Below, one piece after another: positions 17,249 to 17,480 of a stretch of DNA of 64,000 nucleotides. The stretch spans positions 5,324,501 to 5,388,500 of the forward strand of contig NC_008009.1 in NCBI RefSeq assembly GCF_000014005.1, in the 5' to 3' direction. Numbering within the stretch: position 1 is the first letter of the stretch; each line of letters starts with the position of its first letter. Made by a program: the position numbers and the translations under genes. Under the pieces are notes generated by a model. The model did not search any database. It worked only from the letters and a program-made list of their open reading frames with translations, and was not told where the DNA came from. The DNA comes from Candidatus Koribacter versatilis Ellin345. GTDB taxonomy: Bacteria; Acidobacteriota; Terriglobia; Terriglobales; Acidobacteriaceae.

Positions 17249-17290
17249 TGGGTGCTCCTGTCGTCTAGAGAAATTTTTGGCCAACGCTGC

Positions 17291-17327
17291 AAAAGCAAAA
17301 ACCCACGATCCGGGGGACCGTGGGTTT
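17291..17327 (-). terminator. Attenuator terminator upstream of metY
   Basis: On the minus strand a 9-bp perfect stem AAACCCACG/CGTGGGTTT (17319-17327 with 17299-17307) is closed by a short inner stem with a GGG/CCC loop and followed by TTTTTGCTTTT. It ends 43 bases before the metY start, so it can only act as a conditional terminator of metYX transcription. Confidence 0.85.
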
Positions 17328-17353
17328 AGGAACTTAGACTTCAGAACTGGCTG

Positions 17354-17443
17354 TTAGTCCGTCGCTCCTTGAACCCGCGGCCGGGCACACATGTGCATAC
17401 ACATGGCCATGGTGCTGAGCGGGCTGAAGCTGACGGACAACAT
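17354..17443 (-). CDS. Met/Cys-rich leader peptide of the metYX operon (29 codons)
   Basis: An ATG at 17443 opens a 29-codon frame ending in TAA at 17354-17356. Residues 12-19 read MAMCMHMC: four methionines and two cysteines in eight codons, just where a ribosome should slow when Met- or Cys-tRNA is scarce. No Shine-Dalgarno sequence precedes the ATG, but a promoter predicted immediately upstream would place the transcription start within about three bases of it, so translation may be leaderless. Codons 7-9 and 23-26 contain arms 1 and 2 of the alternative hairpins. Function is inferred, not shown. Confidence 0.75.
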   Translation of the reverse strand: MLSVSFSPLSTMAMCMHMCARPRVQGATD

Positions 17444-17451
17444 AGTCAAAC

Positions 17452-17480
17452 AGTATGCAGAAACCGCAGATGGTTGTCAA
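17452..17480 (-). promoter_or_regulatory. Predicted sigma-70 promoter of metYX
   Basis: On the minus strand TTGACA (17475-17480) is separated by 17 bases from CATACT (17452-17457), a perfect -35 and a 4/6 -10. Start of transcription is expected around 17443-17446, at or just before the leader ATG. Confidence 0.7.

Follow-up and report, generated by a model that had tools for sequence, protein, structure and literature searches.

In Candidatus Koribacter versatilis Ellin345, a short open reading frame (ORF) preceding metYX probably forms part of a ribosome-mediated transcription attenuator responsive to methionyl- and cysteinyl-tRNA. The window analysed (64,000 nucleotides; all positions refer to it unless otherwise indicated) carries this leader on its minus strand, flanked by an amidohydrolase-family gene and metYX. 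A preliminary description of the window had proposed an attenuator of the trp type, and that reading is supported by a conserved ORF, conserved arms, promoter spacing and the switch point in folding simulations.

The leader region and proposed mechanism

The gene metY, encoding O-acetylhomoserine sulfhydrylase (15905-17248, minus strand; NF006096 and TIGR01326 over cut-off), starts with an ATG at 17248, with a TTG start at 17284 also open, and is overlapped by 4 nt by metX, encoding homoserine O-acetyltransferase (14769-15908, minus strand; NF001209 over cut-off). The leader ORF spans 29 codons (17443-17354, minus strand), is translated as MLSVSFSPLSTMAMCMHMCARPRVQGATD before its stop, and contains the Met/Cys run MAMCMHMC at codons 12-19. 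MCMHMC with one mismatch allowed occurs once in the whole genome (backward control, 0). A promoter is predicted directly upstream (17480-17452, minus strand), with a -35 box TTGACA at 17480-17475, a 17-nt spacer and a -10 box CATACT at 17457-17452; this was the sole promoter-like site found in the leader scan (0.1 expected), and the transcript is therefore expected to start at or near the leader ATG. A near-palindrome, CATGTGTATGCACATG, lies inside the run (17389-17404, minus strand) and is probably incidental, since relatives differ at that stretch.

Pairing of the arms (all on the minus strand) was checked by hand and held as first described: arm 1 (AGCCCGC, 17419-17425) forms 7 pairs, one of them G-U, with GCGGGTT of arm 2, and extended arm 2 (17366-17379) can instead pair with arm 3 (17319-17332) at 11 of 14 positions, one again G-U. 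Arm 3 comprises the 5' side of the terminator, located by terminator scan, plus its flank. Its pairing with arm 4 was also recovered, at a length that requires correction: the intrinsic terminator hairpin is not 9 bp long and has 13 pairs and a 3-nt loop (17327-17299, minus strand; -20.0 kcal/mol), followed by TTGCTTTTGC. The helix GTCCGTC/GACGGAC (17432-17438 with 17357-17363, minus strand), which closes the 1:2 hairpin, is present in the minimum free energy (MFE) structure of the leader together with the terminator. This structure has an energy of -70.2 kcal/mol (z -4.78), a value reached by 0 of 200 shuffles, and terminator-like sites numbered 4 in 701 bases against 0.8 expected. The ORF, arms and terminator are thus confirmed as an observation. 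They resemble the parts of a trp-type attenuator, namely a short ORF with putative regulatory codons matching what the operon makes, a predicted intrinsic terminator between the ORF and the first gene and, in the folding model, a 2:3 antiterminator that would exclude the terminator.

With transcription starting at or next to the ATG, as promoter spacing predicts, a ribosome could load at once and follow RNA polymerase. A shortage of Met- or Cys-tRNA would stall it in MAMCMHMC with arm 1 covered, so that arm 2 would pair with arm 3, no terminator would form and metYX would be transcribed. When both tRNAs are plentiful, the ribosome would pass the run and disrupt 2:3, and the terminator would form; with no ribosome, 1:2 would favour termination. 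In this scheme we infer translation of the ORF, ribosome stalling, read-through and a response to both Met and Cys.

Conservation and folding simulations

Upstream DNA was inspected at 24 (L013-L036) of 80 metY loci collected, and a promoter, ATG, Met/Cys run, stop and terminator were common to 16 of these (L013, L014, L016-L018, L020-L022, L024-L028, L033, L034 and L036); in the closest relative, L013, the run reads MAMCMCTHMC. At E 0.01, a model built from 17 leaders (R1) had matches in 174 of 398 family genomes, the weak matches listed being often to the terminator only, and 126 matched loci (30 + 96) were looked at. Searched to E 10, the own genome gave 6 matches, strong at metY alone. A separate search of 140 family genomes found a metY copy at E 1e-190 in 44, from which 43 upstream regions were counted after G087 was dropped (metY starts at the contig edge). 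In 37 of the 43, metY was preceded by an ORF that starts with ATG, runs for 18-50 codons and has, within 8 residues, 4 or more Met/Cys with both represented; the controls gave such an ORF in 13 of 2150 dinucleotide shuffles, in 3 of 43 reverse strands and in 2 of 29 cysK upstream regions. The leader precedes hom, the gene ahead of metY, in G015 and G078, is truncated by a contig end in G008, is replaced in G072 by a Cys-rich ORF with a run lacking Met, and is absent in G029 and G094 (2 of 43 close metY copies). The Met/Cys codons and pairing arms, whose absence from close relatives the preliminary description had named as grounds for rejection, were found in close and more distant relatives.

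In the 111 leaders collected, 6-13 nt separate the -10 box from the ATG that follows it (mode 7, in 63 of 111), a spacing that is favoured by our picking of the leader start by best promoter. TTGACA was matched at 5-6 positions in 95 of these leaders, and the mean promoter score was 8.05 versus 5.11 at shifted positions. Because of this spacing the leader ORF is probably leaderless, its start being predicted from the promoter. A terminator-like hairpin was present in every one of the 111, with a median of -22.3 kcal/mol. In an alignment of a 38-sequence clade, gap runs within ORF columns 1-92 were of 6 nt (64 runs, 37 of them tracing to one insertion in L151), 12 nt (10) and 3 nt (2), and gaps after the stop were of 1-5 nt. 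A codon-position test gave no coding signal: there was no third-position excess and positions varied alike. A hairpin around the leader stop, TGCG-CTAGA-CGCA, is common in this clade (alignment A2, columns 104-118).

Consensus folding of the 17 leaders recovered the terminator alone, because arm sequences change between clades, and the remaining arms were examined instead by simulation and by the one-clade alignment. In the 38-sequence clade, helices 2:3, 1:2 and 3:4 could form in 92.8%, 90.5% and 91.5% of cells, respectively, compared with 15-61% in a slid control; covariation within the clade was weak, with 16, 57 and 202 of 500 shuffles, respectively, reaching the observed score.

For simulation, the 111 leaders were grouped into 82 clusters at 80% identity, and each cluster's transcript was folded as far as the terminator apex, a ribosome footprint being masked at successive codons. 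With the footprint 14 to 2 codons upstream of the last core Met/Cys codon, the 5' terminator arm paired with upstream RNA at a mean of 0.71-0.75; the value was 0.63 at that codon and 0.51-0.55 at +1 to +12, returning to 0.65 at +16. Pairing was higher with the ribosome in the run than past it in 71 of 82 clusters, and higher than with no ribosome in 48 of 82. Stalls before the run gave a 2:3 value of 0.734 versus 0.694 in the run, the latter being larger in just 26 of 81, and our claim is therefore narrowed to the drop after the run. Shuffling the arm-2 region lowered pairing in 68 of 82 clusters, and shuffling the 5' region raised it in 49 of 81, a modest 1:2 effect. In the window leader the corresponding values were 0.68 real versus 0.38 shuffled for arm 2 and 0.53 real versus 0.75 shuffled for the 5' region, which includes arm 1, and the profile ran at 0.68-0.76 up to codon 17, then 0.51 at codon 18 and 0.27 at codon 19.

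Codon content and alternative readings

Non-start codons of the 82 clusters comprised 14.2% Met and 9.9% Cys (135 TGC and 101 TGT), compared with 3.9% and 7.6% in shuffled ORFs; the excess is mainly Met. R1 matches with Met/Cys ORFs away from metY precede various other sulfur-related genes: a uroporphyrinogen-III methyltransferase gene with a PAPS-reductase-domain gene after it (L190), cysD (L202), nitrite/sulfite-reductase-domain genes (L207, L208, L209), ssuA plus permease (L196, in sister genome G032), homoserine dehydrogenase followed by metY (L189 and, judged from the sequence start alone, L218), cysK (L213) and a pair of ATP-grasp and luciferase-like genes (L199 and, again from the sequence start alone, L186, L205 and L212). 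Some further loci were also noticed. In L183 a Met/Cys ORF (MAMCMCM) with terminator precedes a 110-aa protein with no Pfam match. A Tyr-rich YAYYYA with terminator lies just upstream of the R1 match in L192, L193, L195 and L198, before a phenylalanine 4-monooxygenase gene (scanned in L193), and looks like a Tyr attenuator; an ORF beginning MSLCLHHHHHGHSHHHVQGV with terminator, ahead of a his gene cluster with hisG second (L211), looks like a His attenuator. L219 has a Thr/Ile/Ser/Met-rich ORF and terminator before threonine synthase (TIGR00260).

Leaders of metB-type and cysK genes were located by inspecting the DNA upstream of those genes. In the own genome a metB-type gene at 2374609, whose best families score below cut-off, stands ahead of a cystathionine beta-lyase gene (TIGR01329 over cut-off) and carries the Met leader MLLTSRMYMAMRPPGGRRPASEV ending at a stop. 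RMxMAM is kept in 8 of 9 metB-type orthologs with 58% identity or more (the own copy counted among them), and inspection by eye shows in the same 8 an arm that could pair with one further downstream, with compensated changes in L347 and L349 (CCTAGG with CCTAGG replacing CCAGG with CCTGG); the leader is absent in L348 and in two copies at 48-49% identity. In simulation the no-ribosome value was as high as the stalled one in 6 of 8, a result that does not agree with a protective 1:2 helix in these leaders; the switch was weaker in L344 and L349. Upstream of the own-genome cysK (at 2508996; TIGR01139) lies a GTG-started poly-Cys ORF, VNAPFYACCCCC and stop, and its counterpart in G032 reads, by eye, VSAPFHSLSCCC and stop. 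Dense Met/Cys ORFs were listed before 7 of 29 cysK genes, and of five cysK ORFs simulated, L315 alone showed terminator and switch. The Met share of Met plus Cys was 0.59 for metY (82 clusters), 0.83 for metB-type (8) and 0.05 for cysK (7), the latter two sets being small and hand-picked, with the cysK set including G032 and leaving out L338. At a CysK-type/CGL-type pair (L286/L291) no leader was visible.

MetY uses sulfide, cystathionine gamma-synthase uses cysteine and CysK makes cysteine. Codon content appears to follow pathway, because within one genome the metB-type leader is Met-only and the cysK ORF Cys-only. It is tempting, at a little short of an even chance, to read the metYX leader as a ribosomal OR gate, on if either Met or Cys is scarce, in which the codon mix would reflect pathway logic (a Met leader at the cysteine-using metB/metC-type pair, a Cys leader at cysK). 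Were this so, a Met attenuator would work although its own ORF needs Met to start, and a SAM-II-like riboswitch would have been swapped for a peptide sensor at one gene within one phylum.

The same attenuator might instead sense a single amino acid, the other codons being passengers, for example of ATGTGY repeat slippage. Run lengths differ in 6-nt steps, G079 is nearly all Met (MSMSMRMQMC) and G072 has Cys only, all in favour of this reading; we nevertheless consider it unlikely, as Met and Cys occur together in 110 of 111 leaders while metB-type and cysK leaders of the same genome each use nearly one amino acid. Sensing by a nascent Met/Cys/His peptide, in which a metal, redox state or metabolite would arrest the ribosome independently of tRNA charging, is suggested by CMHMC, which could bind metal. 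Residue order and neighbours in the run vary widely (MAMCSCMC, CCMCMCMC, MSMSMRMQMC), whereas an arrest peptide of defined specificity would not be expected to vary in this way, and we regard this reading as very improbable.

A riboswitch or protein-binding RNA, with the frame open by accident and no leader peptide, would account for the strong leader structure and has a precedent in the SAM-II-like RNAs that stand ahead of metY in some other members of the phylum. At E 1e-6 the R1 model hit 25 of 399 class genomes, all within this family. A metY copy at E 1e-170 was found in 10 of 149 phylum genomes, six of them outside the family: two f47 loci combine an ICMCMCSM-containing ORF with a terminator (simulated switch late in L354, nearly flat with a late peak in L355), two f45 loci have a SAM-II-like core, and the remaining two have neither a clear ORF nor a clear SAM-II-like core. 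The core GATTT...GCTAAA lies upstream of metY in L023, where SAM_alpha scored 24.1 bits (cut-off 36), in L029, L032 and L035, called by eye, and in L352 and L353, called by motif; L023 alone was scored. A variant SAM-II group of Acidobacteriota, below Rfam thresholds, is possible on these matches. At the window leader, however, Rfam gave no match (over the 64 kb, only a tRNA at 60590-60660 passed the gathering score), and the SAM-II aptamer model gave none up to E 5 in 16900-17900. Nor did any Rfam family pass the gathering score in 18 metY loci scanned, so that an aptamer in place of the ORF, which the preliminary description had named as a contrary finding, did not appear over threshold. Arms differ between clades while the Met/Cys codons stay, and ORF gap lengths are multiples of 3; we give an RNA-only sensor even less weight than an arrest peptide. 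That the ORF arose by chance beside an ordinary terminator of the same-strand upstream gene, which ends at 17566, is scarcely credible given the promoter between that gene and the leader, conservation with metY and the 13 of 2150 shuffle control.

Comparison with known systems

The attenuator reading, with tRNA charging as the signal, supplies a mechanism that can be tested for sulfur amino acid regulation in a soil phylum that is dominant but little studied. It also lends itself naturally to three questions: how a single ribosome combines signals from two tRNA pools, how Met-dependent initiation is reconciled with attenuation by Met, and how riboswitch and peptide sensor come to replace each other. 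Our literature search recognised no Met-codon attenuator peptide and no acidobacterial leader-peptide attenuator, with priority uncertain as subscription papers fell mostly outside its coverage. In the accessible portions of these sources, leader peptides were at that time on record for Proteobacteria and Actinobacteria and function was assigned to almost none of the predicted acidobacterial attenuators (PMC2965389), leader genes were counted in Acidobacteria with no mention of methionine or cysteine (PMC4833913), and a Xanthomonas met 5' UTR was described with no mention of a leader peptide (PMC6230763).

The SAM-II/SAM_alpha riboswitch shares position and gene in some other Acidobacteriota, but is a SAM aptamer with no peptide, and the window leader does not match it. 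The uORFC-8-2 motif before cysS in Rhodobacterales, for which ribosome-mediated attenuation is proposed in the available text of PMC8632094, likewise combines a uORF bearing Cys codons with a terminator, and differs in its two Cys codons, its gene and its place in Alphaproteobacteria. Excerpts of PMC1262725 describe leaders with Cys runs in Actinobacteria; conserved terminator hairpins were not found among the Mycobacterium leaders, nor were conserved RNA structures ahead of methionine operons. Mycobacterial leaderless poly-Cys ORFs upstream of sulfur genes (Canestrari 2020, as cited in the consulted parts of PMC9031893 and PMC4633059) share a short ORF, leaderless by prediction here, with sulfur amino acid codons before sulfur genes, and as so described are most like the own-genome cysK ORF, which ends in CCCCC at its stop. 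By the same partial account they have Cys only, in a consecutive run near the stop, whereas the metYX leader adds Met, an intrinsic terminator and alternative arms, and its mixed run ends 10 codons before the stop. Classical trp and his attenuators share with it a short ORF with codons for the end product, helices 1:2, 2:3 and 3:4, an intrinsic terminator and a biosynthetic operon; the metYX leader differs from them in its mixed Met and Cys codons, its probably leaderless ORF and its occurrence in Acidobacteriota.
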